A DNA stretch of 64,000 nt from Oscillospiraceae bacterium. Lineage in GTDB: Bacteria; Bacillota; Clostridia; Oscillospirales; Oscillospiraceae. The stretch's first letter is position 1; each line of letters starts with the position of its first letter. The position numbers and the translations under genes were made by a program. The DNA lies in contig CADARY010000003.1 in NCBI GenBank assembly GCA_902790375.1, positions 30,227 to 94,226 on the forward strand, in the 5' to 3' direction. Under the pieces are notes generated by a model that had not been told where the DNA came from, did no database searches, and saw only the letters and a list, made by a program, of their open reading frames with translations. Positions 4,056 to 54,383 of this stretch are shown piece by piece.

Positions 4056-4613
4056 ATGACAGACACCTCAATTATAGAGTTATATTTCAATCGGTCGGAA
4101 CTAGCCATAGAGGAAAGCCAGGTAACATACGGCAGCTATTGCTATCGTGTGGCGAATGGTATCCTCAACGATCCCGCTGATTCTGAGGAAAGTGTCAACG
4201 ATACATGGTTTGCAGCATGGAACGCTATACCGCCGACGCGCCCCAATAGTCTAAAGACTTTTTTTGGCGCATTAACAAGGCACATCTCTATTGACCGGCT
4301 ACGGAAGCGCTTTGCCGATAAACGCGGAAAAGGTGAAGCTCTGATTGCCATTGATGAATTAGCAGAATGTATTCCTTCAGGCTGGAGCATGGAGAAATCC
4401 ATCGAAAACAGAGAGCTTATCCGAGCTTTTAACTCTTTTTTAGAGAGTCAGCCTGTCTTAGATCGGAATCTGTTCGTTGCACGATACTGGTATGGCCTAC
4501 CCATTGCTGAAATAACTGTAAAGTTCGGAATAAAAAAGAACACCGCAGTTTCAAAGCTGCGTCGTACACGAATCCGTCTCCTTGCCTATCTTGAAAAGGA
4601 GGACTTACAGTGA
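4056..4613 (+). CDS. ECF-type RNA polymerase sigma factor
   Basis: This 185-aa sigma-70 family protein of ECF type would direct RNA polymerase to a small regulon. Region 2 contains the segment NDTWFAAWNAIPPTRPNSLK and a region 2.4-like RHISIDRLRKR. Region 4 ends with the helix-turn-helix PIAEITVKFGIKKNTAVSKL. The frame is open from 4005, but ATG 4056 is preceded by AAGGAGG at 4042-4048 with good spacing, so this start is chosen. It overlaps the next gene by four bases (GTGA), the usual arrangement for a sigma factor and its membrane partner. Base composition is visibly more AT-rich than the flanking transfer genes, suggesting cargo acquired by the ICE. Confidence 0.88.
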   Translation: MTDTSIIELYFNRSELAIEESQVTYGSYCYRVANGILNDPADSEESVNDTWFAAWNAIPPTRPNSLKTFFGALTRHISIDRLRKRFADKRGKGEALIAIDELAECIPSGWSMEKSIENRELIRAFNSFLESQPVLDRNLFVARYWYGLPIAEITVKFGIKKNTAVSKLRRTRIRLLAYLEKEDLQ

Positions 4614-20700: not shown

Positions 20701-23393
20701 ATACCCGCGCCGTTGCTGCCGCCGGTGGCCGTGACAATGCCGCCGTTGATGGTGGTCTTGCCGCCGCCATAATATCCGCCGCCGATACCCGCGCTGGAGT
20801 AGCCCCCCTTGGTGGAGATCTTACCGCCATAGATAGTGATTGTACCAGCAGTTTTGTTAGTGCCGCCAATACCGGCGTTATTACTATCCGGACTGGTAAT
20901 GACCAACGAACCCATCTCGTCTGCTTCAGTACTGTAGGCACAAATGTTGAGGGTTGCTCCGCTATTTACCTCTATGCCCTTGGGGATGGTCAGCGTTGCG
21001 CCGTCCGTGAGAACCAGGGTTACTTGGTTGCTGACCGTGACGCGGGTGTTGATCGTAACATTGCCGAGCACGGCAACCACGGGCGTCTTGGAACCAGTCC
21101 ACTTCTCAAGCTCAGAAGAAATCGGTGTATAATTGGTAGTGTTCGATACAGTATTTCCGGTCGGGTCTATATAGGTAATCGGTATCTTTTCAAATTTGGC
21201 GCTGAGGGTCACGTTGTCGGCCGGCATTATAAATTTATTATTATTCACATCCACAGTGCCGCCGCCGTCCTTCGTCACGCTCACCGAGTTCTCCACATAG
21301 CGATACCCCGCGCCGTTCGTCACTATAATATCAACACTGTCGTTCTCAACCGGATTGTTGTAGGGGAAACCATCTTTCCATGCGGTGACCATGCCATCTT
21401 TATCTGTGTAATTCTTGATCCGATATCTGGTTTTGCCGCCGAGGATCAACTTGCTGGGCCCGTCCGGAGCACTGGTCACCTGTTCATTGTTTTCCGTGTT
21501 CAGCAGGGAACTACCTTCAGCAATTATAAAATTGCCATAATAATTTCCCTCGTTGATGATCGCGTCGGTCTTGTTTTTGAGGTCTATGGTGATCGTCGGC
21601 GAGGCGGTACTCGTCTCATAATTGCCTATACCATATTCTTTTGCCGTTATGTAACCACCATTGAGGTTTATGCAGCTTTCCGAAGCATTCTCGTCAGAAG
21701 CTCCAAGGCCAATGGACGCTGAGTATTTATAAGCACTGCTGGATTCGCCATTTCGGGATCCTTCTGCTGTCACTGTGCCACCCTCGATCGTGATCTTTGT
21801 GGCATTTTTACCATTATAGCCGCTTCCGATGCCTGCGCCGCCATAGCTGCCGGTGGCCGTCACGGTACCGCCGCTGATATTGATCGTGCCGCCCCTGCTG
21901 AACTGGCCGCCGCCGATGCCTGCGCCCCCTCCGGTGGAGGAGTTATATTTAGTGCCCGTAGTCGTAACCCTGGCGTTGCCGCTGATCGTGATATCATATT
22001 CACCTCCGGCATTGTTCCAGCCACGTCCCGAACCGATTCCGGCGGCGCCGCCACCAACACCGAAATCGCCGTCGATGACCGTGACATTCGCATTTTTTCC
22101 GATCTCGATCGTGCATTTGCTGTCCAAACCTGATACATTTGCCGTTGCACCACAACCGATTCCGGCGCCACCGTCGTTGTTCGTGGCCGTGACGCTGCCG
22201 CCATAGATTTTGACATCTGCTTCTAATGCGCAACTGCCGGAGCCGATTCCTGCTCCACCGGAAGAGCCGGTGGCATTTATCGTACCGCCATAAATGGTTA
22301 TGGTGCCGCTATTGCCGCCTTTTTGGGAGCTTTGGCTTTGGCCTGGGATATGGCGTTTACCGCCGCCGCCGATACCCGCGCCGCCATTATCACCAGTAGC
22401 CGTTACATCACCGCCATAAATGGTGATGGTGCCGCCCGACCCACGAGAGTCGCTGTTAGTGTCTGTCGTTGAGTCCGCGCCGCGAGAGCCGCCGCCAATG
22501 CCTGCTGCGTACTTGCCGGTGGCTGTGATAATGCCGCCATAGATCGTTACTGTGCCGCCTTCGCCATGATAACCACTGCCGATGCCTGCGCCGCCCACGT
22601 ACACCCCACCACTTCCCGAATAACTGCCCTTGGCCGTTATCGTGCCGCCGTAGATGTTTATTGTGCCGCAAGAGGCGCCGCCACCGATACCCGCGGTACC
22701 AGTGGCAGGATAACTAGCTATGTTCAATATACCGCTATCTCCCGACTGGCCGTAGATGTTCAATGTGTTATTTTTTAGGACTGTAATACCTTGTGCGATT
22801 CTTTTATCATATAAATATTTATTGAAAGTCATGGTACAGCCGTCGCAGAGAATCAGATTCACCGTGCCCTTGACCGTGACACGATTGGACATCTCGACGT
22901 CGGAATTGACGACATACCATGTGGTTTCTCCGTCCGTACCCCATGTGATGCTCGTGCTTGTGACGGGCGTGGCTGACGCCGTCTCTGTACGCTCTGTCAC
23001 CGTGTAGCTGCTCTCATCCCAGTCCCGCCGGATGTATGTTACGGATACGAGTTCGGCATCCGTCACGACGATTTCATAGGTCACGCCGCCCACGGTGACC
23101 TTCATCCACTCCGTGGTGGAGAACGTCCGGTGCGCGGTGACGACCCATTCGCCGGTGGCGTTGGAGGCAGAGAACAGGCCGGGATTGCTGACCTCCACTG
23201 TCTCAACTTCGCCGGGCAGGCCAAGGGCGGACAGGATTTCGGACATGGCGACGGACGTGTCGCCGGGCAGCACGTATTCCAGCCCGTCGCGGGTAAATTC
23301 CACGGTGTACCCGCTCTCCGCGTGCGCGGGAGTGAACAGCCCGAAGACAAGCGCCAGATATACCAGCGCCGACAAGATCAATCTCTTTCTCAT
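17778..23393 (-). CDS. Large secreted repetitive surface protein (adhesin-like)
   Basis: This 1871-aa protein has a signal peptide (ending TPAHA-ES). Two long beta-solenoid-like regions carry repeats of type GGTITIYGGTITATGSSGGA with GAGIGGG turns, as in carbohydrate-binding Cthe_2159-like proteins. A chitobiase C-terminal-type unit follows (YYTDGTDPT near residue 1200), then two near-identical 75-residue units beginning APTGLTATKASSSTAADG. A final region has FRFYVALPENFDASG, found in several Clostridia surface proteins. There is no LPXTG or S-layer motif, so the mode of wall attachment is unclear. It likely binds glycans or mediates adhesion. It heads an operon with the 36-aa peptide and the small secreted protein. 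Confidence 0.85.
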   Translation of the reverse strand: MRKRLILSALVYLALVFGLFTPAHAESGYTVEFTRDGLEYVLPGDTSVAMSEILSALGLPGEVETVEVSNPGLFSASNATGEWVVTAHRTFSTTEWMKVTVGGVTYEIVVTDAELVSVTYIRRDWDESSYTVTERTETASATPVTSTSITWGTDGETTWYVVNSDVEMSNRVTVKGTVNLILCDGCTMTFNKYLYDKRIAQGITVLKNNTLNIYGQSGDSGILNIASYPATGTAGIGGGASCGTINIYGGTITAKGSYSGSGGVYVGGAGIGSGYHGEGGTVTIYGGIITATGKYAAGIGGGSRGADSTTDTNSDSRGSGGTITIYGGDVTATGDNGGAGIGGGGKRHIPGQSQSSQKGGNSGTITIYGGTINATGSSGGAGIGSGSCALEADVKIYGGSVTATNNDGGAGIGCGATANVSGLDSKCTIEIGKNANVTVIDGDFGVGGGAAGIGSGRGWNNAGGEYDITISGNARVTTTGTKYNSSTGGGAGIGGGQFSRGGTINISGGTVTATGSYGGAGIGSGYNGKNATKITIEGGTVTAEGSRNGESSSAYKYSASIGLGASDENASESCINLNGGYITAKEYGIGNYETSTASPTITIDLKNKTDAIINEGNYYGNFIIAEGSSLLNTENNEQVTSAPDGPSKLILGGKTRYRIKNYTDKDGMVTAWKDGFPYNNPVENDSVDIIVTNGAGYRYVENSVSVTKDGGGTVDVNNNKFIMPADNVTLSAKFEKIPITYIDPTGNTVSNTTNYTPISSELEKWTGSKTPVVAVLGNVTINTRVTVSNQVTLVLTDGATLTIPKGIEVNSGATLNICAYSTEADEMGSLVITSPDSNNAGIGGTNKTAGTITIYGGKISTKGGYSSAGIGGGYYGGGKTTINGGIVTATGGSNGAGIGGGGHYGGGGTITVNGGIVTATGGSYGAGIGGGYYGGGGTININGDKVEATGGSNGAGIGGGYYGGGGTININGGKVEATGGSSGAGIGGGYYGAGGTININGGKVEATGGSNAMGIGGGSGKTSSGTTLTVDFSDNDDSLKADSYTALTVKEGKALTDSEDGFYTGTLTADDLTAVKNKTLVKCGTICTITVNVTGTGGTVTSPVSRSQEGTPITLKVSPETNYVLDTLTYQVGSDEPVNIPKTDYTFSMPAGNVTVYAAFKPAPVAAPSFTPAAGKYSVAQSVTIACETENATIYYTTDGTDPTTESSKYTDAISVSKSVTIKAIAVKSGMENSKIASAAYTIVYKVTVTAGGNMTRNEDSGADTQTELSGAMTPVVYTANAGYYFPTDYSVAGSNGISVTRNSDTQITVSGTPTANAEITLTAPTAKATQATPTDLTATKASSSTAADGTISGVTDAMEYQKNGETSWNAVGENQTEITGLTAGTYKVRYAETADKNASTEATVVVGVKENQEAPTGLTATKASSSTAADGKISNVTDAMEYQKDGETSWIAVGENQTEITGLTAGTYKVRYAETADKNASDVTIVEVEVKPNATVTKAPKAKNLIYNGQAQELVTAGEATGGEMQYALGTATEATQTYTTSIPAKTDAGTYYVWYEVVGDADHNNTAPVCVTVTIAVLTEPKIIGAALVLDGTLNFRFYVALPENFDASGAHMVFTIHGRSYDIPFTDAGIDEDKRTFNCPVYSIEMAEPVAAVFHYTKDSQTKTATLTTSVKEYLDIAQKTYQTDTKLQAMIAAVRDYGRYIQPYLARLHGFTVGAGGYAEMPAATESLTPTTAQALKDYQTVWNKYDASLVDSVSYYDTFAERTTLHVLVRLKSAKTVTATVDGTACKVTSLGGRQYSVEIPDIAANNLDKSYRVAFSANGAVICDIDVSALTYVRAVLASRDQADEKAALTAFYNYYVAAEAYGSN
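20350..20790 (-). repeat. Tandem 87-bp repeats in the adhesin gene
   Basis: Units begin at about 20391, 20478 and 20565, exactly 87 bp (29 codons) apart, with further diverged copies to about 20790. The encoded unit is GGTININGGKVEATGG followed by S-N-G-A-G-I-G-G-G-Y-Y-G-G. Near identity suggests recent expansion and possible length variation. Confidence 0.82.
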
Positions 23394-23929: not shown

Positions 23930-25747
23930 TCAAGTGTTTTGCCCGCGGTAGTGCAGGCACAGCATGGTGATGTCGTCCGCCTGGGGCGCACCGGCGGCAA
24001 AGGCATCCACAGAGGCCTTCACACGGCCGCAGACCAATTCGCAGATATTGTCTTCCTCCGGGACAATACCGCTAAGCGCCTCCAGCAGCCGTTTCTCGCC
24101 GTAAAACTCCTTCGCCTCGTTGGCCGCCTCCGTTACGCCGTCCGTATAGAGCAGAAGCAGATCATGCGGCTCCAGCTGAAGCGTCTGAGAACTGTACTCC
24201 GCGTCATCCATAATGGCAAGAATCAAGTCGCTCTGCATTTCCAGAAATCTGGCCTGCCCGTCGCGGATCAGCACGGGCGGATTGTGGCCGGCATTGGCAA
24301 AGCGCACAAGGCCGGTATTAAGGTCGAGCAGGCCGATCCATGCCGTGACGAACATGTCCGCTTCGTTTCCCTCGCACAGGCGCTTGTTGGCATAGGCCAT
24401 GGCGCTGCCGATATCATCCGTGCGCTCAACACAGTCGCGGAGAACGGTTTTGCCCGTCATCATAAACATGGCTGCGGGAATTCCCTTGCCGGACACATCC
24501 GCAATCAGAAAGGCCACAGTGCCCTTGTCCGTTTTATAGAAGTCGTAGAAGTCGCCGCCCACCTCTCTGGCGGTTTCCATAAAAGCATAGAGACGGAATG
24601 CCGGATCGTCTGTGAAAGCGGCGGTCAGCAGCGGCAGCGCCGAAGTCTGGATACGGCTGGCATAGGCCAGCTCCTCGTCGATGCGGGCGGCTTCCCTGGC
24701 GATGTACCCTTTCAGCGCATCCACCGTTTTGTTGATCCCGTCGGAGATACGCGCAAATTCTCTGGAGGTTTGAATGTTCAGCCGCCGGTCAAGGTTTCCG
24801 CCCGTAATGGCAGCCAGTGCCTCATCCACTTCATCCACAGGGCACAGCACAAAGACCTTTACCACATACGAAATACTCAGATAAATGATGATAATCAGCA
24901 CCACACTGGACACCGCCAGTCTGACAGCAGAGTCGCGGACCGTTGCCAGCGCCTCCTCCTGCGGTACGATCGCCACGATGCGGTAGCCCTCAAGTATGTC
25001 GTACATCCAGTATTCCGACTTTCCACCGTCGGTGATCAGCGTCAGCTCTTTGGGCCCGCCCAGTCTGTCGCCCTCCGAAAAGATTCGCCTGAGCCTTTCG
25101 CCCGGCAGATCCGTGCGCTGAGTGACAAGCTCCAGCTCGGCATCCAGGATGTACACCATGCCCGTTTCCATGACATGCCGGTTCCCGGTTATGCCCCAGA
25201 TGTTGTCGCCGAGATTTGTCTGAAATTGCTTCTCGCTGCAGCCGACCTGCATGATGCCGCCCTTGTTCAGCCTGATCCCGGCATACTTCCGCAGGGTTTT
25301 CTCGTCATGCGCGACATGCCGCAGGGGCTGCACCAGCTCCTCCGTCTTCTCCATGAGCTTCATAAATTCCGCGGAACGCTCATGACTGTACATGTCAAAG
25401 CCAGGAAGCTGCGGCACTGTGCTCTCCACGACGATCCCGCTGCTGTTGATCACATTGATTTCGCTGACTTCATACAGTTCCGCCAGCTCGTCCAGATTCC
25501 GGTTTCCGTTGGAATCGTAGGTCTCTGCGATCTGACGCGCTGTCACTATCAGGTCCTCATCCGCGGCCCTTTGAATGTCGTGGGACACATCGCGCAGCGT
25601 GATCGTCAGCAGACGATCGATATCCCGGATCTCGGTGCGATACTGTAAAAAGAACATCACCAGCCTGGTCAGTACAAAAACCGTCAGTGTTCCCAGAAGC
25701 AGCCATTTGCGCAGAATGGAGGACATGGTCGGCAGGTTCTGCTTCAT
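23930..25747 (-). CDS. Membrane PP2C-type (SpoIIE-family) phosphatase with external sensor and HAMP
   Basis: This 605-aa protein should dephosphorylate a STAS anti-anti-sigma-type protein in response to an external signal. It has an N-terminal membrane helix (about 12-33), a roughly 240-residue extracytoplasmic sensor region (Cache-like by layout), a second helix (about 275-298) and a HAMP segment (CPVDEVDEALAAITGGNLDR). A linker helix precedes the SpoIIE/PP2C domain with metal-binding motifs GGDFYD, DVSGKG, DGVTEA and ADDIT, all intact. It overlaps the upstream HATPase gene by four bases (ATGA), so it is the last gene of the operon that starts with the MATE transporter and NRPS. The domain order matches RsbU/RsbP-like stress regulators. 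Confidence 0.9.
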   Translation of the reverse strand: MKQNLPTMSSILRKWLLLGTLTVFVLTRLVMFFLQYRTEIRDIDRLLTITLRDVSHDIQRAADEDLIVTARQIAETYDSNGNRNLDELAELYEVSEINVINSSGIVVESTVPQLPGFDMYSHERSAEFMKLMEKTEELVQPLRHVAHDEKTLRKYAGIRLNKGGIMQVGCSEKQFQTNLGDNIWGITGNRHVMETGMVYILDAELELVTQRTDLPGERLRRIFSEGDRLGGPKELTLITDGGKSEYWMYDILEGYRIVAIVPQEEALATVRDSAVRLAVSSVVLIIIIYLSISYVVKVFVLCPVDEVDEALAAITGGNLDRRLNIQTSREFARISDGINKTVDALKGYIAREAARIDEELAYASRIQTSALPLLTAAFTDDPAFRLYAFMETAREVGGDFYDFYKTDKGTVAFLIADVSGKGIPAAMFMMTGKTVLRDCVERTDDIGSAMAYANKRLCEGNEADMFVTAWIGLLDLNTGLVRFANAGHNPPVLIRDGQARFLEMQSDLILAIMDDAEYSSQTLQLEPHDLLLLYTDGVTEAANEAKEFYGEKRLLEALSGIVPEEDNICELVCGRVKASVDAFAAGAPQADDITMLCLHYRGQNT

Positions 25748-26199
25748 GTCACTGTGTCCTCCTTCTTCCGTTTATGCGAAGCATTGAATTCAAAATACAG
25801 GGTCAGGATGTTGTAGTTGCCCTCGCGCACATACGTCATTTTTTTTGCACTTTGCCGGATGAGCTCAATCCCCATGCCGCCGAGGTCAAGGTCTTCAAAT
25901 TCCGCCGTTGTACCTGCGCTCTGCGTCGGGTCGAACGGAATGCCGTTGTCCGAAAAGCTGATGCAGAAAGCTTCGCCGTCGCTGCGGCAGATGAAAGAAA
26001 AATCATCTGCTCCGGAATAGTTTACAACATTTGCGATCCACTCGTCGCAGGCAAGCAGAGCCTGTCGGACCTCCTCCGTGTTTCCCGCCTCGGCGATCAG
26101 CGTTTCCCTGACGATGTCGAAGGCCTCCAAAGCGACGGGCAGCTTTTGCTGTCCGTCGCTTTTCATCTGCCTGGGGGTCGCGTTCCCGTTTTCTTTCAT
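25744..26199 (-). CDS. RsbW/SpoIIAB-like ATP-binding anti-sigma kinase
   Basis: This 151-aa HATPase_c-type protein is the likely kinase and switch component of the partner-switching set. It has an N box (CDEWIANVVNYS), the G1 box (FSDNGIPFDP) and GGMGIELI at the ATP lid, as in RsbW and SpoIIAB. It would bind a sigma factor or other target when the STAS partner is phosphorylated. No sigma-factor gene lies in this operon, so its target must be encoded elsewhere or be a non-sigma protein. It overlaps both neighbours by four bases, which fits 1:1 stoichiometry by translational coupling. Confidence 0.88.
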   Translation of the reverse strand: MKENGNATPRQMKSDGQQKLPVALEAFDIVRETLIAEAGNTEEVRQALLACDEWIANVVNYSGADDFSFICRSDGEAFCISFSDNGIPFDPTQSAGTTAEFEDLDLGGMGIELIRQSAKKMTYVREGNYNILTLYFEFNASHKRKKEDTVT

Positions 26200-26489
26200 T
26201 CCTCGATTTTCAGTCGTTTGTCAAGGCCTGTCATTTTCAGCACGTTCCGAATCTCGCCGGAAGCATGACAAATGGTCAATGCGCCTTTCATGTACTTAAA
26301 GGCGGCAACGATCTGCCTCAGGCCCGCCGAAGAGATATACTCCAGATGCTCCATGTCCAGCACCAGGGCATTGATGCCCGGTCCCAATTCGTTGAGCGCG
26401 GCCTCCAGCTCAGGCACCGTCTTGGTATCCAGCCATCCGGAGAGTTTAAGCTCGGCAGTGTTTCCGCTTATGGTTTTTTCGATAGTCAT
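26196..26489 (-). CDS. STAS-domain anti-anti-sigma-like protein (RsbV/SpoIIAA type)
   Basis: This 97-aa STAS protein contains LDMEHLEYISSAGLRQIVAA, in which the conserved Ser-Ser-Ala-Gly holds the phosphorylation site of RsbV/SpoIIAA. It is expected to be phosphorylated by the HATPase encoded next and dephosphorylated by the SpoIIE-type phosphatase after it. AGGAGG precedes ATG 26489. Only 15 bp separate it from the NRPS stop, so it is read from the same message. Length is typical of the family. Confidence 0.9.
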   Translation of the reverse strand: MTIEKTISGNTAELKLSGWLDTKTVPELEAALNELGPGINALVLDMEHLEYISSAGLRQIVAAFKYMKGALTICHASGEIRNVLKMTGLDKRLKIEE

Positions 26490-26504
26490 GGCTTCCTCCT
26501 GTTA

Positions 26505-29500
26505 TTATTCAAACATGATGAGTTCGTCCAGTGCCTTGATCATGCTCATGATATACTTTTCACCGGATACGGGCCACTTGAAGCCCAGGCGGTAAAGCGC
26601 GTTGGTGGTAAAGCTGGAGTCCTGATCCAGCGGGTAGCGGCGTTCATACCCTTCGTGGCTCTGATAGGCGATCAGCGCGCCGGAAGCGCTTTCCGCATCC
26701 GCCATGCGCTGTGCAAAATCCTCATCCTCCACCGCTTCCATCTGGAAGCCATATTCCCGCATGGAGTAGATGATGTCGGCAAAGGTCACGGTGTGGTTGT
26801 TGACCGCGTGAAACACAGTGAATTTAGGGTCTGTGCCGGCAAGCAGAAGAATCGCCCGGGCTGTCATATCAATCTCGGAAAAGTCTGTTACCGTGTTCAT
26901 CAGGGAATAAGGGACTGCGCCGATGGACTTGTAGCTTGCCAGAGAACGGATGAACGCATTGGTGTTGAAGTTTACCTGGAACTCGCCATCGGAATGGCGT
27001 CCCATGAGATTTCCAAGGCGCATGATCTTTGCGTCAAGTCCCGTTCCGCAAGCTTCCAGAACCGCTCTTTCCGCCTTGAACTTGCTGAGGGTATAGGCGT
27101 TATCCAAATGCTGACCATTGTAGAGCCGGTTCTCGGTGATCTTCCAGTCTCTGGGCGGCTGACCGTCCAGCCCTTCGCCGGCAACAGACACGGTAGAGGT
27201 CTGGATAAGCCTCCTGTGGGTACGGCGGCACAGCTCGATGAGATTCTCAACGCCCTTGACGTTGATGCGCTCCAGGCTGTCGTCCTTCACGAAGTGCTTC
27301 ACCAGCGCCGCACAGTTGACCAGCGTGTCGAAGGGCAGCGCGTCACAGGCTTTAAGAGACTCCGCATCGGTGATGTCGCCTCTCACGATCTTTACGCGGC
27401 CCGCGTCGAAGAAGGGTTCGATTGGTTCGTCAAAGTAGTAGAAATACAGCTCCTTGAGGTGCTTTTCGGGAGCCTCGCCGCGCAGAAGGCAGAAGACGGT
27501 TCCGTCATCGTTTTGCAGGTACTCCCTCAAGACATGGATGCCCAGAAAACCCGTCGCGCCGGAGAGCATCAGATTGCCGATGGGACCGCGCGCGATCTCG
27601 CGCAGCTTGTCCGCACAGTTGTTGTCAAGGGGCAGCTTTGTGTAATCGTAATTCTGAAGCTGCGCAAGCTCCGGCGTTTTTTCCGCTTCCGCGCCGCCGG
27701 TGGCCAGCGCCGCCAGAGCGCGCGGCGTCTGGGCCTTGAACACGTCCGCATACACGACGCCATAGCCTTTTTCCGCTGCGTTGATGGCAATGATGGAAGC
27801 GGAAAGCGATGTGCCGCCCAGCTCAAAGAAGTTCCCTTCCGCGCTGACCTTTTCCATGTTCAGCACTTGCGCAAACCAGCCGCAGAAATTCTCCTCCACA
27901 GCGTTTGCGGGAGCGACATATTCTCCCGCATCGGGGGTATACTCCACCTTCGGCAGCTTCTTTTTGTCGATCTTGTTGTTCGCCGTCAGCGGCATGGTCT
28001 CCAGCTGCATCAGCACGCCGGGCACCATATACGCAGTAAGGGTCTTGCGGATTTCCGCCCGCAATTCTTCCGCGGGAATCTCACGGTTTGCGGTGTAGTA
28101 GCCCGCAAGGAATTTGTTGTTTTCCTCTCCGGTCATAATGACGATGGAGGTCAGCACCCCGGGCACGGCATTGATGGCGTTCTCGATTTCGCCCAGCTCT
28201 ACGCGCAGGCCGCGCAGTTTGACCTGATTGTCGGCTCTGCCATGGAAGCGCAGCCGCCCGTCCGAGGTCCATGCGGCAAGGTCGCCGGTGCGGTAGGCGG
28301 GGCGGCCCTCCATGGTGAAGAACTTCTCCGCCGTCAAATCCGGTCTTCCGATATAGCCTTTGCCGACACCCTCGCCGGCAATGATCAGCTCTCCTGGCAT
28401 CAGCGGCGGCAGGACATTGCCCTTTTCGTCCACAATATAAGCCCGCACATTGGAGGCGGGGCGGCCGATGGTGATGAGACCGGGGTCTGTCACCGCGTCC
28501 ATGGTGCAGCTGATGGTTGCTTCGGTGGGGCCGTAGCCGTTCATGATATAGGAATCGCTTCGGATGGCGCGCATCTTTTCAAACAGAGCAGCAGGGTATG
28601 CCTCGGCGCCCACATCGTAGGACACGACCGCTTCCAGCACCTTCTTCATCATCGGCAGCCCGATGATGTTCGTGAGGAAGGAGGGAGTACAGGTCATCAA
28701 GTCCACATGATTTTCCGTCATCAGTTTTGCCAGCGCCGCGGGGTTGTGGATTTCCTCTTCCGTGGTCATGCAGATCGTCAGGCCATGGGAAAGGGGAATA
28801 AACTCTTCCATGATGGACACATCGAAGGTGATTGCCGCCAGCGCGAGGGAAACGTGACCCCGTTCGGTATAGCCCAGGATCTCGGGGTTCTTTGCGTTGG
28901 CATCGACGAAGTTCACAAGGTTCCCCTGTGTCAGCATCACGCCCTTGGGCTTGCCGGTGGAGCCGGAGGTGAAGATGCAGTAGGCAAGGTCGTCCTTTTC
29001 GCGCGGGATATCCGGGTTCTCCGTTCTGCCGTCGCGCAGCAGCTCTTCCACCGCCACCACGGGGCAGCGGAGACCTGCGAGAAAGTCGCCGCGCTCGCTG
29101 CGAAGCTGATCGGTCACCACCAGCACCGCAGATTCGGAATCCTCCACCATCACCCGTACCCTGTCATCGGGATAATCCGGCGCGATGGACAGGAACGCGC
29201 CTCCGGCCTTCAAAATGCCCTGGCGCACCATGTACACCCGCTCGTCCCGCGGCAGCATCAGGGATACGATGCGGCCGACGGCGTTGAGATCCATCAGCGC
29301 ATGGGCGATGCGGTTGGCGCTTTCGTTGAGTTCTTTGTAGGTGAAGCTCCCGGTCGGGGTAATAACAGCCAGGCGGTCAGGGTACTGCGCCGCGCTCTCC
29401 TCCATCAGGCAGTGGGCCGGACGGAAGGGCACGGGCACGTCTGTGTCGTTGACAGCGTTCAGGAACGAGGCGGCCTCATCGGACAGCATCGGGATCTCGC

Positions 29501-32500
29501 CCAGCGTCTCCTGCGACAGCAGGCCGCGCAGGATCATGCCGTAGGCGTCGGCCATCCAGCGCATCTGCGCGTCGTTATACATGTCTCTGCGGTATTCGAA
29601 GCTGACGGTATACTTGCCGTCCTTCTTGAAAACATCCACGCTCAGAGGCTCTTTGGCGTCCTCCAGCGGCCGGGTGATCTCTGCCGCTTTCTGCCCCGCC
29701 AGGGTAAAGCCGGTGAAGGTATCGCCCTGGTAGGCAAACAGCACATCGGCGTTCACGTCAAAGTCCCGTACCGCTTCCGCGAAGGAGTAAAGATCGTTTG
29801 CGGTCAGGTCCTGAATCCGCTTCTGTACGCCGAGCAGGAAATCCTTTGTGTTCGCGCCCCTGTCGCATCTTACATAGATGGGATAGGTTTTCACCAGCAT
29901 GCCCATGATGCGCATGGTCTCCAGCCGTGTTCTGCCGTTGTAGATGGAGGCAAAGAGCGCCTCGTCGCTGCCGTCTGTCCGGGCAAGCAGCAGTCCGAAG
30001 GCTGCCGTGAAGAGGGCGTTTTCCGTAATCTGATTTGCCTTGCAGAAGGCCGCGGCTTTTTCCGGCGCAACAGCCGGCAGCACGTATTCGGCCGATGCCG
30101 CCTTGCCGGGGCTTTCCTTGTCGGCGGCCTTTTCCGCTGCGGGCAGGCAGTTCAGGCTGACGCCGCCGAAGATTCCCTCGTATACCGCTTTGGCTTTGGC
30201 GAGGGCGTCGGTCTTGCGGAGCTTGTTTTCATCAAGCCCCAGCTGCAGGGAATCGTAGCTCTCCTTTTGCAGCTTTTCCCCCTGATAGGCCCGCTCAATA
30301 TCTTCCAGCAGCACGGCGGCGGATGTGCCGTCCATCAGGATATGGTGGAAGACCATCGAAAGATAGAGCGAGCTTTTGTTCTTGACGATCCGGAAGCGGA
30401 ACAGCGGCGCGCGCGAAAGCTTGAAGATGATTTTCTCCTGTGAGAGCTCTTTTTCCAGCGCACTGTCTTCCAGCGGCGAAGTCTCCACCGCAACATCCCA
30501 TGCGAGATCAGGATGGGCGATCATTTCGGCCCCGCCGTTTTTGCTCGGCTCGATGGAGCTCTTCATGGCAGGGTGAGCTTCCACGGCGCTGCGGATGGCG
30601 TCGGCAAGGCGTTTTTCGTCGGTATCAGGCCCCACCTTGAGCAGGAAGGGGATGTTGTATTTGTCGCTGGTTTCGTCCATCCGGCATTCCAGATAAATGC
30701 CGAGCTGCGTCTGGGTCAGCGGCGCGGAGAGGACCGTCTCGGTTTCCGCCGGCTGCGTTTGCGCCGTACTTCCCTTACGCCAGCGCTCTACCAGCGCGTT
30801 TTCAATGTCCAGAATACGCATGCCGCCCAGAAGCTGCGACACGTTCGGACTATAGCCGAATCTCTTCTCCAGCGCGACCATGAGCTGAACGCTGGAAATG
30901 GAGGTGAGCCCCATTTCGGTCAGCGGCGTTGCCGCGCCGAAATCGCGGCTTCCCACGAATTGCGCGCACACATCCATGAGCTCCTGCTCCAGAGCAGTCA
31001 TCTCCCGGGCCGTTTCCTGCTCCTCGGCGCTCTTGCGCTCGGGCATGGGGAGCTTGCGGCGGTCAACCTTTTGGTTCTGGTTATAGGGGATGGCGTCGAG
31101 CTGCATCGTCACTGCGGGGACCATATAGGGCGGCTTCTCCGCCATGATGAAGGCATTGAGGGCCTTTACGTCGATCTGCCTGTCGGATACCACGTAGGCC
31201 GCGATATACTTGCCGCCGGACGGCGCGTCATACGCGGCCACGGTCGCGTCCCGGATGCCGTCAAAGCGGCGGATAACCTCCTCGACCTCGGTCAGCTCGA
31301 TGCGGAAGCCGCGCACCTTCACCTGGGCGTCGCGGCGGCCGATGAACTGCACGTTTCCGTCGGGCATGAAGCGCACAATGTCGCCCGTATGGTAGACACG
31401 GCTGTACCCGGGATCATCAGAGAAGGGGTTGGACGTGAAGGCTGCTGCAGTCTGCTCGGGGCGGTTCAGGTAGCCCCGGCCTACCTGGGGGCCTGAGATC
31501 CAAAGCTCGCCCGCCGCGCCGACGGGCAGGCGCTTGCCGGTCTTGTCAACCACATACAGCTTCATGTTGTCCAGCGCTTTTCCGATGGGCACGTCCCGCT
31601 CAAGACGCTTCATCTCGTAAAACGTGGAGAAGATCGTGCACTCGGTCGGACCGTACACATTCCCTGTCCGGATGTCCTTCGGCGCAAAGGGCACCATCTT
31701 CTCACCGCCCGCCGTGAGCAGACGCAGCTTGCCGGGGTTTTCCATCTGGGCAAACTGTCGGCCGATCTGGGTGGTCATGAAGGCGTGGGTGATGCCGTTT
31801 TCGGCAAAGTACCGGTGCAGCGCCGGCAGATTCAGGCGCAGCTCCTCGGAGATGATATAGATGGCGCTGCCCGCCGTGAGCGCCGGGTACATGTCGTGCA
31901 TGCAGGCGTCGAAGCCGTAGCTTGCGTATGCCGTGATGCGCGCGTTTTCATCCATGCCGTAGGTCTTTCTGTGCCAGGCGCAGAAGGCGCTGAGGTTTCC
32001 GTGCTCGAGCATGACGCCCTTGGGTACGCCGGTGGAGCCGGAGGTATAGAGCATGATGAAGAGGTCCGACGGCTTCGGCGCTTCGAGCGCTTCGCCGCTG
32101 TCTTTCATCTGCGGGATCTCGTCGAGCATGATGCGTCTGCCGGTGAAGTCCGCCGAAATGATGCCGCTGAGCTCCGGCGTCGTAATGAGCAGCATGGCCC
32201 CCGCGTCCTTGACCATCAGGTTCAGGCGCTCGGGCGGATAAGACGGGTCCAGCGGCAGATACCCGCCGCCCGCCTTCAGCACGCCGAGAGAAGCGATGAC
32301 CATATACTCACACCGCGGGATCAGAACGGCCACGACCTTTTCTCTGCCGACGCCGCAGGCGCGCAGCTTCCTCGCCAGCGTATCGGTCAGCGCATCCAGC
32401 TCCCGGTAGCTGCATTTATTGTCCTCATACACCACCGCGATGTTGTCCGGTGTTTTTTTCGCCTGCTCCCGAAACAGATCCACCACCGTCCGGTCCGCAT

Positions 32501-35453
32501 CATAGGGCGCCTCATTGCGGTTAAACCCGTCCAGCGCCGCCGCAGCCTCACGGGACAGAAGCTCGATATCGCCGATTCTGGCAGCGGTCAGCATCTCCGA
32601 GGTTACCTTTGCCAGCATGTCCGTGAAGCTTTCCATCAGGCCGCGGGAATAGAGCTCGGTGCGGTAATCCACCGACAGCTCATAGCCGTGCGCGGTTTTC
32701 AGCACCATCACGGTCAGGTCAAACTGGGTATTGCCGGTTTCCAGGGGGCGTACCTCAAAAGCGCCGTCCTTCGTACCGGCGCCGTTTAAAAGCCCCGCCT
32801 GATAGACAAAGCTGATGTTTGCGCTGACACCGTAGTTCTGCGCAAGCTCCCCGAAGGAGATGCAGTCATGCCCGATCTCTTCAAACAGCATCTCCTGCGT
32901 CCGTTTGAGGAAGGCGGGCACGGCTTCCTCGTCGGCAAACCGCAGATACACGGGCAGCGTTTTGACAAACATGCCCACGGAAGCGGCAAGGCGCGGGTCA
33001 TGGCGCCCGTTGTTCACGGTGCACAACAGCACGTCGTCCGCTCCGTTGAACTTTGCCAGGGTGTACGCAAACGCGCCGAGGAAGAGCGTGTTTTCCGTGA
33101 TGCCGTGCTCACGCACGAAGCCCTCGGCCTGGACGCTGCTCACGAGTTCCCCAAGGGGCAGCAGGATACGGCCCGCGCCCTTTTCGGGGTTGGGGTCCGT
33201 CACGTCGCTGACGGGGCGGGAATCCGTGTCCACGCCGTCCAGGAGCTTTTGGAAATACGCCTGCGCAGCCTTGTAGCGCCCGCTCTCCTTCAATGTCTTT
33301 TCCCATATGGAGACATCGAACAGCGACAGCGCCTCATGCTGCAGCTGCTCGCCGTTGTAGGCGGCGGCAATGTCGTCGACCAGGGCCTTGACAGAGCTTC
33401 CGTCAAACGCGATGTGATGCACGTCAAAGAGGAAGTAATTCCTCCCCTGCACGGTCACAAGCTCTGTGCGGAAAAGGCGGTCACGCTCCAGGTCAAAGGG
33501 CCTTATAAAGGCAGCGGCCGCTTCTTCCAGGCTATCGGCGGCCGCGCGCTCCGGCTCCGCCGTGAAGTCCTCCGGGATCATGCAGGGCAAGCCGTCGGAG
33601 GTCTTGCCGATCTTTACGCCCAGCGCTTTGTGCGTTTCAAAGGCGGTCTTCACGGCGGCGGCAAAGCGGTCAAGGTCAACGGCCGCCGGCAGCTCGCAGC
33701 ACATGGGAAGATTATACATCATGGATTCCGGCTCCCGCACACATTCGAGATAGACGCCCATCTGCGCCTCTGTGAGCGGGTAACTGCTTTCAAGCCCGGT
33801 GTGATGCTCTATCGTATCTGTCTTCTCCGCGCCGTCAAGCAGCGCGGAAATGCCCCGCGCCGTTCTTCCGCGCAGGATCAGCTCCGGCGTGAGCGTTTCC
33901 AGCTTCGCCGCCTCAATGAGCGCGAGCACCTTGATGGAGTCGCCGCCGAGGCTGAAAAAGTCGTCATCAATGCCGACACGTCCGCAGCCGAGCAGCTCCT
34001 CCATGTTCCGGCAGAGGATCGTCTGCGTCTCGTTCTCCGGGGCCGCGTATTCACACTTGTAATCGCTGATATCCGGCGGCAGGAGCGCCTTGCGGTCAAG
34101 CTTGCCGTTTACGTTGAGCGGCATTGCGTCAAGCTGCTTGTAATAGCGCGGGATCATATAATCGGGCAGCAGGCGCTTCAGGGCCGCTGTGAGCGCGGCT
34201 GCGGAGACGGGCATCGAAGCGGTATAGAATGCCGCCAGATACTTCTGGCCCATGCGGTCGTCGAAGGCCTGGACGGCGGCGTTTGTCACGCCGTCGTTTT
34301 TCTTCAGCAGATTTTCGATCTCCTGTGTCTCGACGCGCTGACCGTTAATCTTGACCATCCAGTCCTTGCGGTTGAGATAGACGAGCTTGCCGTTTTCGTC
34401 AAGAACTCCGATATCGCCGGTGTGGAAAAGAACACTGCCGTCCGGCTGCTTGATAAAGGCAGCGGCGGTCGCTTCCGGCATGTTCAGATACCCGTCGGCA
34501 AAATGCCCCAGCAGGCAGATTTCGCCCTCCGTGCCCTGCGGGACCGCATTTCCGGCCTCATCCAGCAGACGCATCTCCACCCCCTCCAGGGGCTTGCCGA
34601 TGGGGGTGTTGTCGTACTTCCTGTCAACGAGGAAGGAGCACACGCCGCCCAGCGTCTCGCTCAGGCCGTAGGCGTTGCAGATTTCAAAATCCTCGCTGTA
34701 AACACCGCTGAGCCTCTCGCTGCCGACAAGCGCGCGCTTCATGCCCCGGCTTCCTTTGTAGAGCCTGAACATCTGGGGCGTAATGAAAGCGGCGCTGATC
34801 TCCTGCGCATCAAAGTATTCCGTCAGGCGACGGATGTCCCGGCGCTTCGCGTCACTGAGGATATGGACGCATCCGCCGCGGCTGAACACGCTGAGATATT
34901 CGAGGACAAAGGCCACAAAGGACATGGGCGCGCTTGCTCCGAAGCGCACATCGCCGATCCCGGCAAGCAGTCCGGCGTTTCGCTCAACCGCCGCTTCCAG
35001 CGCGCCGCGGGCATGCAGGATGCCCTTGGGCCTGCCTGTGGAGCCGGAGGTGTAGATCACCAGTGCCGGAGCAGAATCCGGCACAGATACGGGCTCCATC
35101 GGCGCATACTGCTCTATGTCCGTCAAAAACGCCTCATCCAGCAGCAGTGCCGCGCCGCAGTCCTGCCGGATGTATGCGATGCGCTCGGGCGGATAGCTCC
35201 GGATGACGGGAACCGCGGCGCAGCCCGCCTTCAGTACGCCGAGATAGGCCGCGACGTATTCCATGGAGCGCTCCAGCCCCAGAACGACAAAGCTGCCCTC
35301 CCCGAGGCCGCATGCCGCAAGCTTTGCGGCGATGCTTCCGCTGAGCGCATCCAGCTCTCCATAGGATGCAGCGCGCTCACCGTCCCGGTCGACAAGCGCT
35401 GTCTTCTGTGCGTTTTCTTTTGCATAGTATTTGATTTGATCGAGAAATCTCAT
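26505..35453 (-). CDS. Trimodular NRPS with terminal thioester reductase (A-T-C-A-T-C-A-T-R)
   Basis: This 2982-aa cytoplasmic assembly line should build an acyl or peptide chain and release it as an aldehyde. Domains: A1 ~1-465, T1 ~480-545 (GGDS, Ser506), C1 ~555-985 (HHIAFDG 679-685), A2 ~990-1475, T2 ~1485-1555 (MGLTSISS, Ser1518), C2 ~1575-2000 (HHILMDG 1703-1709), A3 ~2010-2500, T3 ~2510-2590 (GGTS, Ser2549), and reductase ~2625-2982 (GATGFLG 2632-2638; YTLSK with Tyr2787 and Lys2791). A10 lysines are present in all A domains (451, 1462, 2494). A2 and A3 have the Asp that binds the alpha-amino group (FDAC, Asp1182; FDVS, Asp2211). A1 has Val180 there and YGLSET instead of YGPTE, so A1 probably activates a non-amino carboxylic acid. 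It overlaps the MATE gene by four bases. Confidence 0.93.
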   Translation of the reverse strand: MRFLDQIKYYAKENAQKTALVDRDGERAASYGELDALSGSIAAKLAACGLGEGSFVVLGLERSMEYVAAYLGVLKAGCAAVPVIRSYPPERIAYIRQDCGAALLLDEAFLTDIEQYAPMEPVSVPDSAPALVIYTSGSTGRPKGILHARGALEAAVERNAGLLAGIGDVRFGASAPMSFVAFVLEYLSVFSRGGCVHILSDAKRRDIRRLTEYFDAQEISAAFITPQMFRLYKGSRGMKRALVGSERLSGVYSEDFEICNAYGLSETLGGVCSFLVDRKYDNTPIGKPLEGVEMRLLDEAGNAVPQGTEGEICLLGHFADGYLNMPEATAAAFIKQPDGSVLFHTGDIGVLDENGKLVYLNRKDWMVKINGQRVETQEIENLLKKNDGVTNAAVQAFDDRMGQKYLAAFYTASMPVSAAALTAALKRLLPDYMIPRYYKQLDAMPLNVNGKLDRKALLPPDISDYKCEYAAPENETQTILCRNMEELLGCGRVGIDDDFFSLGGDSIKVLALIEAAKLETLTPELILRGRTARGISALLDGAEKTDTIEHHTGLESSYPLTEAQMGVYLECVREPESMMYNLPMCCELPAAVDLDRFAAAVKTAFETHKALGVKIGKTSDGLPCMIPEDFTAEPERAAADSLEEAAAAFIRPFDLERDRLFRTELVTVQGRNYFLFDVHHIAFDGSSVKALVDDIAAAYNGEQLQHEALSLFDVSIWEKTLKESGRYKAAQAYFQKLLDGVDTDSRPVSDVTDPNPEKGAGRILLPLGELVSSVQAEGFVREHGITENTLFLGAFAYTLAKFNGADDVLLCTVNNGRHDPRLAASVGMFVKTLPVYLRFADEEAVPAFLKRTQEMLFEEIGHDCISFGELAQNYGVSANISFVYQAGLLNGAGTKDGAFEVRPLETGNTQFDLTVMVLKTAHGYELSVDYRTELYSRGLMESFTDMLAKVTSEMLTAARIGDIELLSREAAAALDGFNRNEAPYDADRTVVDLFREQAKKTPDNIAVVYEDNKCSYRELDALTDTLARKLRACGVGREKVVAVLIPRCEYMVIASLGVLKAGGGYLPLDPSYPPERLNLMVKDAGAMLLITTPELSGIISADFTGRRIMLDEIPQMKDSGEALEAPKPSDLFIMLYTSGSTGVPKGVMLEHGNLSAFCAWHRKTYGMDENARITAYASYGFDACMHDMYPALTAGSAIYIISEELRLNLPALHRYFAENGITHAFMTTQIGRQFAQMENPGKLRLLTAGGEKMVPFAPKDIRTGNVYGPTECTIFSTFYEMKRLERDVPIGKALDNMKLYVVDKTGKRLPVGAAGELWISGPQVGRGYLNRPEQTAAAFTSNPFSDDPGYSRVYHTGDIVRFMPDGNVQFIGRRDAQVKVRGFRIELTEVEEVIRRFDGIRDATVAAYDAPSGGKYIAAYVVSDRQIDVKALNAFIMAEKPPYMVPAVTMQLDAIPYNQNQKVDRRKLPMPERKSAEEQETAREMTALEQELMDVCAQFVGSRDFGAATPLTEMGLTSISSVQLMVALEKRFGYSPNVSQLLGGMRILDIENALVERWRKGSTAQTQPAETETVLSAPLTQTQLGIYLECRMDETSDKYNIPFLLKVGPDTDEKRLADAIRSAVEAHPAMKSSIEPSKNGGAEMIAHPDLAWDVAVETSPLEDSALEKELSQEKIIFKLSRAPLFRFRIVKNKSSLYLSMVFHHILMDGTSAAVLLEDIERAYQGEKLQKESYDSLQLGLDENKLRKTDALAKAKAVYEGIFGGVSLNCLPAAEKAADKESPGKAASAEYVLPAVAPEKAAAFCKANQITENALFTAAFGLLLARTDGSDEALFASIYNGRTRLETMRIMGMLVKTYPIYVRCDRGANTKDFLLGVQKRIQDLTANDLYSFAEAVRDFDVNADVLFAYQGDTFTGFTLAGQKAAEITRPLEDAKEPLSVDVFKKDGKYTVSFEYRRDMYNDAQMRWMADAYGMILRGLLSQETLGEIPMLSDEAASFLNAVNDTDVPVPFRPAHCLMEESAAQYPDRLAVITPTGSFTYKELNESANRIAHALMDLNAVGRIVSLMLPRDERVYMVRQGILKAGGAFLSIAPDYPDDRVRVMVEDSESAVLVVTDQLRSERGDFLAGLRCPVVAVEELLRDGRTENPDIPREKDDLAYCIFTSGSTGKPKGVMLTQGNLVNFVDANAKNPEILGYTERGHVSLALAAITFDVSIMEEFIPLSHGLTICMTTEEEIHNPAALAKLMTENHVDLMTCTPSFLTNIIGLPMMKKVLEAVVSYDVGAEAYPAALFEKMRAIRSDSYIMNGYGPTEATISCTMDAVTDPGLITIGRPASNVRAYIVDEKGNVLPPLMPGELIIAGEGVGKGYIGRPDLTAEKFFTMEGRPAYRTGDLAAWTSDGRLRFHGRADNQVKLRGLRVELGEIENAINAVPGVLTSIVIMTGEENNKFLAGYYTANREIPAEELRAEIRKTLTAYMVPGVLMQLETMPLTANNKIDKKKLPKVEYTPDAGEYVAPANAVEENFCGWFAQVLNMEKVSAEGNFFELGGTSLSASIIAINAAEKGYGVVYADVFKAQTPRALAALATGGAEAEKTPELAQLQNYDYTKLPLDNNCADKLREIARGPIGNLMLSGATGFLGIHVLREYLQNDDGTVFCLLRGEAPEKHLKELYFYYFDEPIEPFFDAGRVKIVRGDITDAESLKACDALPFDTLVNCAALVKHFVKDDSLERINVKGVENLIELCRRTHRRLIQTSTVSVAGEGLDGQPPRDWKITENRLYNGQHLDNAYTLSKFKAERAVLEACGTGLDAKIMRLGNLMGRHSDGEFQVNFNTNAFIRSLASYKSIGAVPYSLMNTVTDFSEIDMTARAILLLAGTDPKFTVFHAVNNHTVTFADIIYSMREYGFQMEAVEDEDFAQRMADAESASGALIAYQSHEGYERRYPLDQDSSFTTNALYRLGFKWPVSGEKYIMSMIKALDELIMFE

Positions 35454-36805
35454 TTTTTCAAGCCCCCCTGTTCTTTACGAAATAAGGCTATGCTGATCAT
35501 GAGTGTCAGCGACTGAGCCGCAAGCCAGCTGAACCAGACGCCCTGTACGCCAAACAGCGCTGTCAGCGTGAGCAGAGCTGCAATCAGCAGCACCGAGCTG
35601 CTCAGCAGCGAGATCGCAAGGCCCCTGCCGGCCTTTTCCTGGGCCTGGAAATAATACATGATGATGCTGTTCAGGCCCGTCAGCGGGATGGACAGCGCAT
35701 AGATGCGGATGCCGGTCAGCGCGAGGGACAGCAGTTCCCCTTCACGGATGGAGAACAGGGCGGCAATCGGTCCGGCAAGGACAATGTACGCAAGCGCCAG
35801 CGCCGTGGTACCGATGAGCTCCAGCATAACGGCACGGCGGAATACGCATTGTATTCTGTCTTTCAGCCCCGCTCCGGACGCTGCCGCAAGGATGGGCTGC
35901 GCACTCTGGCCGATGCCGTCATAAACTGCCATGGCCGTCATGGAAAGCTGCGTGATCACCGCGTATACGGCCACATAGTTTTCATTGCCGACCCGAATGA
36001 TCACATTGTTGAACACATTGGTCGATACCGTCATGCCAAGCTGGGAAGCGGCCAGCGGCAGACCCGTTCGCCACATCCGAAGCCCCCTGCCCTTCAGGCA
36101 GTTTTTCACAAGCTTCAGGGTATTTCTTTTGCTGAAAAAATGCGTAAGATTCACCGCTATCCCCACGGTGTAGGCAAGGCATGTGGCCAGCGCCGCTCCC
36201 TTGGGGCCCCATCCCAGCGGGCCGACAAAGAGGATGTCCAGCACAAGGTTGGTAAAGGCACAGACAGAGGTCGCGGCCAGAACCCTGTTCGGATCGTCGT
36301 CAATGCGCACGAAGAACACAAGCTGCACATATATGATCAGCGGAATCATGAAGAAAAACAGCACGCGGGCATACTCCACGGTCGGCTCCATGATCGCATC
36401 ATTTGCTCCCAGCAGGCGCACCACCGGCCCGGTGAACAGCAAGCCTGCCAGCATCAGCACGCCGCCGCAGACGAGCATGTGAATCGTGGAGGCAGAGAAC
36501 CAGCGGAGCGCCTCCTCCCGGTCCCCTTCACCCAGAGAATGGGCGTACAGCGTAGCTGCGCCGGAGGAAATGAGCATGGCCAGCGTATTGACCAGCATGT
36601 ATACCGGCATGCACAGCTCCACCACCGCCAGCATGGACGGCCCAAGGAAGTAGCTGAGTATGACGACATCAATGAGCGACGCCACCGTGGCGGTCAGAAG
36701 CGAACCGATGGCCGACGGCAGCAGGCGGCGAAAAAGCTTTCCGACAGGGTCGATGACATAGTTGATTTCTCTGTTTTCTGTCCTGGCGTCCCCCAAGGCA
36801 TCCAT
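35450..36805 (-). CDS. MATE-family exporter
   Basis: This 451-aa protein has about 12 membrane helices and the MATE pattern (LPSAIGSLLTATVASLIDVV near the start, then repeated LGPSMLAVVELCMPVYMLVN-type segments in the N half). It likely exports the NRPS product or protects the cell from it by Na+- or H+-driven efflux. It is the first gene of the operon; its stop overlaps the NRPS start (ATGA). ATG 36805 stands directly after AAGGAG with no spacing, so TTG 36796, nine bases from that site, is an alternative start. Confidence 0.9.
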   Translation of the reverse strand: MDALGDARTENREINYVIDPVGKLFRRLLPSAIGSLLTATVASLIDVVILSYFLGPSMLAVVELCMPVYMLVNTLAMLISSGAATLYAHSLGEGDREEALRWFSASTIHMLVCGGVLMLAGLLFTGPVVRLLGANDAIMEPTVEYARVLFFFMIPLIIYVQLVFFVRIDDDPNRVLAATSVCAFTNLVLDILFVGPLGWGPKGAALATCLAYTVGIAVNLTHFFSKRNTLKLVKNCLKGRGLRMWRTGLPLAASQLGMTVSTNVFNNVIIRVGNENYVAVYAVITQLSMTAMAVYDGIGQSAQPILAAASGAGLKDRIQCVFRRAVMLELIGTTALALAYIVLAGPIAALFSIREGELLSLALTGIRIYALSIPLTGLNSIIMYYFQAQEKAGRGLAISLLSSSVLLIAALLTLTALFGVQGVWFSWLAAQSLTLMISIALFRKEQGGLKK

Positions 36806-36840: not shown

Positions 36841-36869
36841 ATTATATATCGTTTAGAAACATTTGACAA
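36841..36869 (-). promoter_or_regulatory. Promoter of the MATE-NRPS-switch operon
   Basis: On the minus strand TTGTCA (36869-36864) and TATAAT (36846-36841) are spaced by 17 bp, 35 bp before the MATE start. Confidence 0.78.
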
Positions 36870-54125: not shown

Positions 54126-54185
54126 TGGTGACAACTCCTTTCCTATATGCCGTCAAAAAACGGAAAGCCGTTTTCTGTCAGTGGA

Positions 54186-54194
54186 ATTATACCA
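54186..54194 (-). promoter_or_regulatory. Extended -10 promoter of hpf
   Basis: On the minus strand TGGTATAAT (54194-54186) is a good extended -10 element. No strong -35 is seen. Confidence 0.6.
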
Positions 54195-54383
54195 CAAATT
54201 GAAGCAAAAAAGAAGAAGGATTTGTCTGCTTTCCAACAATCGGTATTTTTGCCGATTTTTGGCCGACAGATTTGTACAGGTTTCCAAATTTTCAGCTTCA
54301 GCTTGCTTTTCCTACTATATCTGTTAAACTCAGATTTACAGCATATTTATCCCCTATTTTCTAAAAAAAGTGAGGTGCGCAAC

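Follow-up and report, generated by a model that had tools for sequence, protein, structure and literature searches.

Organization of the operon

The window considered here is the whole 64,000-nucleotide stretch of contig CADARY010000003.1 (Oscillospiraceae bacterium, assembly GCA_902790375.1). It carries a minus-strand operon (36805-23930) in which the genes of a MATE family exporter, a nonribosomal peptide synthetase (NRPS) and the three parts of a partner switch follow one another. Partner switches are textbook regulators of sigma factors. Reading of the open reading frames (ORFs) and Pfam searches gave the following features:

36841..36869, minus strand: promoter-like site TTGTCA-17-TATAAT, 11/12 matches to the sigma-70-type consensus, a consensus match only
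35450..36805, minus strand: MATE family exporter, 451 aa; Pfam MatE 9e-36; without the C-terminal RsbW-like domain found on its counterparts in related clusters
26505..35453, minus strand: NRPS, 2982 aa; Pfam AMP-binding in three stretches, Condensation in two, and NAD_binding_4 (reductase)
26196..26489, minus strand: STAS protein of the anti-sigma-antagonist type, 97 aa; Pfam STAS 3e-13; conserved Ser54 in ISSAGL
25744..26199, minus strand: RsbW/SpoIIAB-like ATPase (HATPase), 151 aa; Pfam HATPase_c_2 4e-12; N box, G1 and GGMG intact
23930..25747, minus strand: membrane sensor phosphatase, SpoIIE-type PP2C, 605 aa; Pfam SpoIIE 1.7e-50

Three of the junctions are 4-bp ATGA overlaps (35450-35453, 26196-26199 and 25744-25747), and the NRPS and STAS genes are separated by 15 bp (26490-26504). 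The promoter-like site ends about 35 bp upstream of the MATE start. A first-pass annotation of the sequence letters had described a five-gene operon with these junctions and a complete partner-switching set within it; both descriptions are borne out by the ORFs, coordinates, Pfam matches and motifs. The same holds for its statement that the operon has no sigma gene: ORFs and Pfam revealed none between 23930 and 36805. The sole sigma-70 region 2 match in the window is a gene of the extracytoplasmic function (ECF) type at 4005-4613, about 19 kb from the operon.

The reductase-terminated NRPS adjoins the MATE gene on the same strand. Its domain order, according to profiles made for this analysis, is A-C-A-C-A-R with carrier domains, two stretches of which pass Pfam on their own. 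This architecture predicts a reductively released short peptide, an aldehyde or alcohol, as the product.

At the level of sequence motifs, the STAS, HATPase and phosphatase genes form a complete partner-switching set. Ser54 of the STAS protein aligns with the serine of a SpoIIAA-like protein from the same genome; the equivalent serine of the SpoIIAA loop is presumably the phosphorylated residue. The HATPase has all the expected residues, namely E, N (N box), D-G (G1) and GGMG (G2), and since these motifs are intact, it is likely the STAS kinase. In the PDB, a sequence search with this protein gave no useful match. The phosphatase consists of an N-terminal hydrophobic segment, a putative outside domain, a HAMP-like segment (20 bits, under the Pfam cut-off of 25) and a SpoIIE-type PP2C part, the predicted structure of which matches RssB, SiaA and SpoIIE domains in the PDB. 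In the sensor region, the model has a predicted local distance difference test (pLDDT) score of <50 at residues 46-264. Searching viral contigs with the phosphatase gave no relative, and searching plasmids with the HATPase gave two weak matches.

Relatives of the operon

The closest counterpart lies on a contig from a metagenome-assembled genome (MAG) of an uncultured Clostridia bacterium (locus L282, the full contig of L218). It encodes a fused MATE protein, an NRPS of 3007 aa, a STAS protein, an ATPase of 140 aa and a phosphatase of 603 aa, followed by a phosphopantetheinyl transferase. Gene order and NRPS architecture are identical to those of the window. The phosphatase of this locus matches dCache_1 weakly (E 7e-5, below the curated cut-off). 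The sigma-70 region 2 search listed no match on this contig (G589:C11).

The window NRPS finds its best matches among the fetched loci in the NRPS genes of fused-MATE clusters, with 40-41% identity over the full length, and the best matches of the HATPase are likewise NRPS-linked loci. The STAS protein is 61% identical to those of L164 and L199 and 59% identical to that of L282. In the STAS tree, from which identical rows were removed and in which the window row was labelled NRPS-linked by hand, it sits in a clade of 13 rows (window included) that are all NRPS-linked (support 100/99), with few columns and a bootstrap not fully settled. The NRPS-linked STAS rows overall do not form one clade (7 changes). 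Because the association of MATE, NRPS and switch genes recurs in relatives and the window STAS belongs to an NRPS-linked clade, it appears to be more than chance.

RsbW-like domains fused to MATE exporters

The window's own genome encodes three MATE proteins with a C-terminal HATPase_c_2 domain (PF13581, E 2e-9, 6e-9 and 2e-7), which surfaced as long frames in a HATPase family search of that genome. Fused MATE proteins of this kind, with a C-terminal RsbW-like domain, are present in relatives too. The fused domain is homologous to the solo ATPases (hhalign probability 99.2%, E 3e-19), and a PDB search with its profile gave weak RsbW and SpoIIAB matches among others (E 0.08-0.14). In the predicted model of one fused protein from a named locus, the MATE fold is followed by a separate beta-alpha-alpha-beta tail. 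The best 50 of 351 Foldseek matches of this model are MATE, MurJ and Wzx-type chains, so the tail is assigned from Pfam, hhalign and predicted secondary structure. A search of open-licence PubMed Central (PMC) papers found no report of an RsbW-like domain on a MATE exporter; such a report may nevertheless exist.

The ATP-lid motif sets the fused domains apart from the other ATPases. Among 76 solo, phosphatase-fused or APH-fused ATPases, the N box Asn is present in 76, the G1 Gly in 75 and a GGxG near the C terminus in 74, whereas this ATP-lid motif is found in only 1 of 86 MATE-fused domains. Counting the aligned GG pair depends on the alignment (74/76 versus 0/86), and 21 of the 86 have a plain GG somewhere within their last 65 residues. 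The fused domains that share a stretch with an NRPS (n=51) retain the N box Asn (49/51) and the G1 Gly and Asp (51/51 each). Those without one (n=35) have the N box Asn in 19 and the G1 Gly in 9; L147 was set by hand to this group, as its stretch holds merely a cut A-domain piece at the far end. Thus, both groups have a changed lid, and erosion at the remaining parts of the ATP site is found mostly outside the NRPS clusters. The view that all MATE-fused domains are dead kinases, first taken from 9 rows, was rejected, because N box and G1 persist in the NRPS-linked domains; the claim is limited to the altered lid.

Association of fused exporters with switch and NRPS genes

Eight proteins, six of which come from switch-gene loci, served to build a profile for the fused domain (A1). 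Searched in 341 genomes of the class, it matched 76 at 1e-3. Of the 28 fused-MATE loci read from its best matches, after exclusion of L166 for want of a MATE, 18 had one switch gene (STAS, PP2C or ATPase) or more, 13 had two or more and 5 had an NRPS. None of the 20 plain-MATE loci, picked by hand from the same genome set, had a switch gene or an NRPS. The difference is strong for switch genes (Fisher, p 2e-6); for NRPS alone p is 0.07. After clustering at 60% identity, a switch gene remained in 14 of 21 fused-MATE clusters (p 4e-6).

A scan of named relatives was run with seven NRPS-linked MATE proteins and is therefore biased towards NRPS loci. It gave 77 loci, of which 23 (L253-L275) with partial MATE matches were not counted and two (L249 and L252) had no detected fused MATE; L282, a longer stretch of the same contig, took the place of L218, and near-copies (L207-L209, for example) stayed in the count. 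Of the remaining 52 loci, 49 have an NRPS gene or piece next to the fused MATE gene on the same strand, 35 have a switch gene in view and 25 have all three switch parts. The carriers include Lachnospiraceae, Ruminococcus, Monoglobus, Erysipelotrichaceae, Selenomonadaceae, Riflebacteria, Synergistaceae, Raoultibacter, Methanobrevibacter and others. L204 is recorded from a cultivable carrier, Ruminococcus sp. zg-924. At L158 (6077-7681) and L165 (4283-5845), genes of GH3-type amide ligases lie beside fused MATE genes; such exporters may serve amino-acid conjugates other than NRPS products.

In the window's family, a condensation domain was found in 24 of 250 genomes. Nineteen NRPS contexts were read, which are part of the family's NRPS loci, exclude the window and include three contigs of <3.5 kb. 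STAS, PP2C or ATPase genes lie within about 8 kb of the NRPS in five of them (L073, L075, L076, L079 with a STAS-APH fusion, and L089). No switch gene lies in the 20 kb of L071, whose NRPS likewise has three modules and a reductase. The window's own genome has a second locus, L075, with an A-T-C NRPS, MATE, STAS, phosphatase and clostripain; the corresponding locus of a congener, L076, has an ATPase. The clostripain-family protease is encoded directly 3' of the phosphatase at both loci (L075 14716-17226; L076 3277-5772). The NRPS-switch link is thus recurrent, not universal.

The reverse count began from HATPase matches in the family (L094-L108 and L168-L178; n=26, leaving out the window, the own-genome fused-MATE locus on C15, and G129:C139, which has an NRPS). 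A fused MATE was present in 8 of these loci and absent from 18, and no stretch contained an NRPS (0/26), so many partner switches of the family serve something else. The first-pass annotation had let its reading depend on whether the trio occurs apart from NRPS genes in close relatives. Switch genes in general do occur apart from them, as this count indicates, but the STAS subfamily of the window is NRPS-linked throughout its clade.

STAS domains fused to an APH-type phosphotransferase are a recurrent companion of switch cassettes (L079 1896-3056, L019 241-1860, L103, L143 and L144), some with a further HATPase domain.

An archaeal carrier

In a Methanobrevibacter MAG (L244), a fused MATE gene follows an NRPS gene that extends beyond the stretch, with 3329 aa of its product in view. 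The MATE tail was detected by a profile made for this analysis (5e-18) and not by Pfam. This genome also gave a single STAS match and encodes two solo ATPases, whose genes each overlap that of a SpoIIE-type phosphatase; a third ATPase match did not reach the cut-off. The search for sigma-70 region 2 gave no match in this genome, while all seven bacterial genomes included in it gave matches. Archaea are not known to possess bacterial sigma factors; on both grounds, a sigma-70 factor cannot be what the partner switch of L244 controls. The switch may be wired to the fused MATE, which is a visible candidate. The archaeal set as a single cluster was considered and rejected, on account of the positions of its STAS gene and its two ATPase-phosphatase pairs.

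Proposed mechanism

In the proposed mechanism, the operon would be a biosynthesis-export unit with its own partner switch. The NRPS would make a short peptide, the terminal reductase would release it and the MATE protein would export it. The membrane phosphatase, with an outside sensor that according to the first-pass annotation could read the exported peptide or a host signal, would dephosphorylate the STAS protein, and the RsbW-like ATPase would phosphorylate it. The phosphorylation state would decide the partner of the STAS protein, either the kinase or the MATE tail, in the way RsbV moves between partners, with an exporter in place of a sigma factor. The RsbW-like domain of the MATE protein may be the docking site, and export might then be turned up or down post-translationally without a sigma factor. 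Post-translational control of export is suggested because the MATE in most related NRPS clusters carries this domain. Since the window MATE has no fused domain, the separate ATPase of the window would have to act on the MATE protein (or the synthetase) in trans.

Two further fusions suggest a similar extension of switch domains to other partners. In the window's own genome, a STAS domain is fused to an AMP-ligase (L295 5002-6924, contig C8), near a lone STAS gene and a C39-peptidase ABC exporter. ABC ATPases with an RsbW-like C-terminal domain, as detected by profiles made for this analysis and not by Pfam, are encoded at L101 (6010-7107) and L151 (3320-4399), and both stretches contain switch genes.

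That the switch gates the exporter and not a sigma factor may be given an even chance. The broader proposal is held somewhat more tentatively: a partner switch would have been rewired from sigma factors to membrane transport, the RsbW-like domain with its changed ATP lid having become the regulatory tail of MATE exporters. In a methanogen, as in gut and rumen bacteria from several phyla, nonribosomal peptide release would then be gated by a sensor phosphatase, a kinase and a STAS protein dedicated to it. In the window, the switch would work in trans with an unfused exporter. A self-contained operon whose output is no sigma factor in cis had been put forward in the first-pass annotation. Such an output now appears probable, given the archaeal genome without a sigma-70 region 2 match and the fusion of the RsbW-like domain to the exporter in relatives; the reading as a whole is supported in part, by comparative evidence, and is sharpened towards the exporter as the likely output.

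Several observations weigh against gating of the exporter. No RsbW-like C-terminal domain was found on the window MATE, which ends at residue 451. Its best matches are the fused L157 (29%) and the plain L179 and L180 (28-30%), no locus exceeding 30%. In the thinned MATE tree (51 of 119 rows kept after removing 7 rows and near-relatives), the plain rows cluster together (support 99) and the window is placed among the fused rows; holding the window with the plain MATEs is not rejected by the approximately unbiased (AU) test (p 0.52), so that both placements are allowed. The window phosphatase scores about equally against L282 (43%, 523 bits) and against L170 (45%, 511 bits), where no MATE or NRPS is in view. 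The A1 profile may favour switch-gene loci by its composition, and the plain-MATE controls were a manual choice. No switch gene occurs in 14 of the 19 NRPS contexts of the family, or in view at 17 of the 52 named fused-MATE loci. In the Methanobrevibacter genome, the contigs with the STAS gene and the ATPase-phosphatase pairs are different from those of the NRPS and MATE genes. Finally, the window's own genome has 12 sigma-70 region 2 matches, the ECF-type gene of the window among them.

Loss of the tail by the window MATE had been considered when the full tree placed it among the fused rows; the idea was dropped in view of the AU result for grouping with plain rows. In an earlier AU test, all fused rows were constrained to a single clade that excluded the window (p 0.007), but two further rows labelled as unfused confounded the result; one of these (L220_435) has a 588-aa frame with an unclear tail.

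Alternative explanations

The genomic sigma factors open the first alternative, a partner switch of the ordinary kind whose output is transcriptional and in trans. The HATPase would be the anti-sigma factor for one of them, or control another regulator, and this target would drive the operon or others. The canonical set is complete, with intact motifs in each of its three parts, and canonical partner switches act on sigma factors (PMC8256260, in the part consulted). But the same genome has a classical STAS-ATPase-sigma set of the SpoIIAA-AB-SigF type at a separate locus (contig C8), no sigma gene lies in the operon, and no sigma-70 region 2 match is listed for the L282 contig or was obtained in the Methanobrevibacter carrier genome. 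A transcriptional output also leaves the MATE-ATPase fusions unexplained, and this alternative is considered unlikely, though it is the most serious of those weighed.

Retention of the N box and G1 in the NRPS-linked fused domains means that some of them may still bind ATP. The exporter could then be the input: its ATPase domain would sense transport or substrate load and signal to the STAS protein, with the output elsewhere. The lack of GGxG in 85 of the 86 fused domains, and of the N box Asn in 16 of the 35 without an NRPS, argues against an active kinase, and a sensor is already supplied by the phosphatase. Such a role of the exporter is improbable.

It is slightly less probable still that the switch acts on the synthetase and not on the exporter. 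Switch genes lie beside A-T-C NRPS genes with unfused MATEs at L075 and L076, the window MATE is itself unfused, and the STAS-AMP-ligase fusion of the same genome would fit this target as well. The fusion is most often to MATE, however, and 17 of the 18 switch-linked fused-MATE loci in the 28-locus set have no NRPS in view.

A mere chance neighbourhood in one genome, with no functional link, would agree with the family NRPS contexts that have no switch gene, but is very improbable given the same gene order in L282, the recurrence in several families and phyla, and the NRPS-linked STAS clade.

Comparison with known systems and significance

The RsbU-RsbV-RsbW/sigma B and SpoIIE-SpoIIAA-SpoIIAB/sigma F systems resemble the window in having a PP2C phosphatase, a STAS protein and a GHKL ATPase with conserved motifs. 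Unlike them, the operon has no sigma gene, and its relatives fuse the RsbW-like domain to a MATE exporter.

The first-pass annotation knew of no described system with this gene order. This is too strong: L282 has the order of the window, and a related neighbourhood was described for Methanobrevibacter ruminantium M1 (Leahy et al. 2010, PMC2812497), the only such description found in open-licence PMC papers. According to the passage of that paper on mru0066-mru0071, an NRPS is accompanied by a MatE exporter, two serine phosphatases and an anti-sigma factor antagonist, the same kinds of neighbours as in the window; sensing, regulation of NRPS expression and export were proposed. The M. ruminantium cluster differs in its two NRPS modules and its gene order, and the passage mentions no ATPase domain on MatE. 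L244 comes from another Methanobrevibacter than strain M1, which was compared by description only. In a survey of rumen biosynthetic gene clusters (PMC8241843), a term search of the main text gave no match for transporter, anti-sigma or phosphatase.

Two systems provide partial parallels, as far as the consulted parts of the papers describe them. In the biofilm-controlling SypE-SypA system of Vibrio fischeri (PMC8256260), the target of the STAS output is unknown; SypE combines the kinase and phosphatase roles in a single protein, and no NRPS or MATE fusion is named. In Escherichia coli (PMC7367683), the STAS-domain protein MlaB binds the ABC transporter subunit MlaF and is proposed to regulate it, and may serve by analogy as a precedent for a STAS protein bound to a transporter. 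MlaB-MlaF differs in belonging to an ABC lipid transporter, and regulation of MlaB by phosphorylation is raised there as a possibility only.

If the proposal is true, an exporter-fused partner switch, present also in an archaeal genome that gave no sigma-70 region 2 match, would show direct control of transport by the chemistry known from sigma-factor regulation, a novel role for a well-known bacterial switch. It would give a handle on when gut and rumen microbes release NRPS products, with the sensor phosphatase as the entry point of an outside signal. The domain fusion makes the question testable with few proteins, namely the STAS protein, the solo ATPase, the phosphatase domain and the MATE tail.

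Other features of the window

Upstream of the operon lies a divergent MscS-like gene. The phosphatase gene is followed on its 3' side by about 0.5 kb without a long ORF and then by a large surface-protein gene. The ECF-type sigma gene is overlapped by a gene without a Pfam match (4610-5620), which perhaps encodes its anti-sigma factor. A serine recombinase with Resolvase and Recombinase domains (9026-10696) is perhaps a sign of a mobile element. Three very large proteins (11226-13913, 17778-23393 and 54147-57650) contain BspA-type or other leucine-rich repeats or beta-helix repeats.

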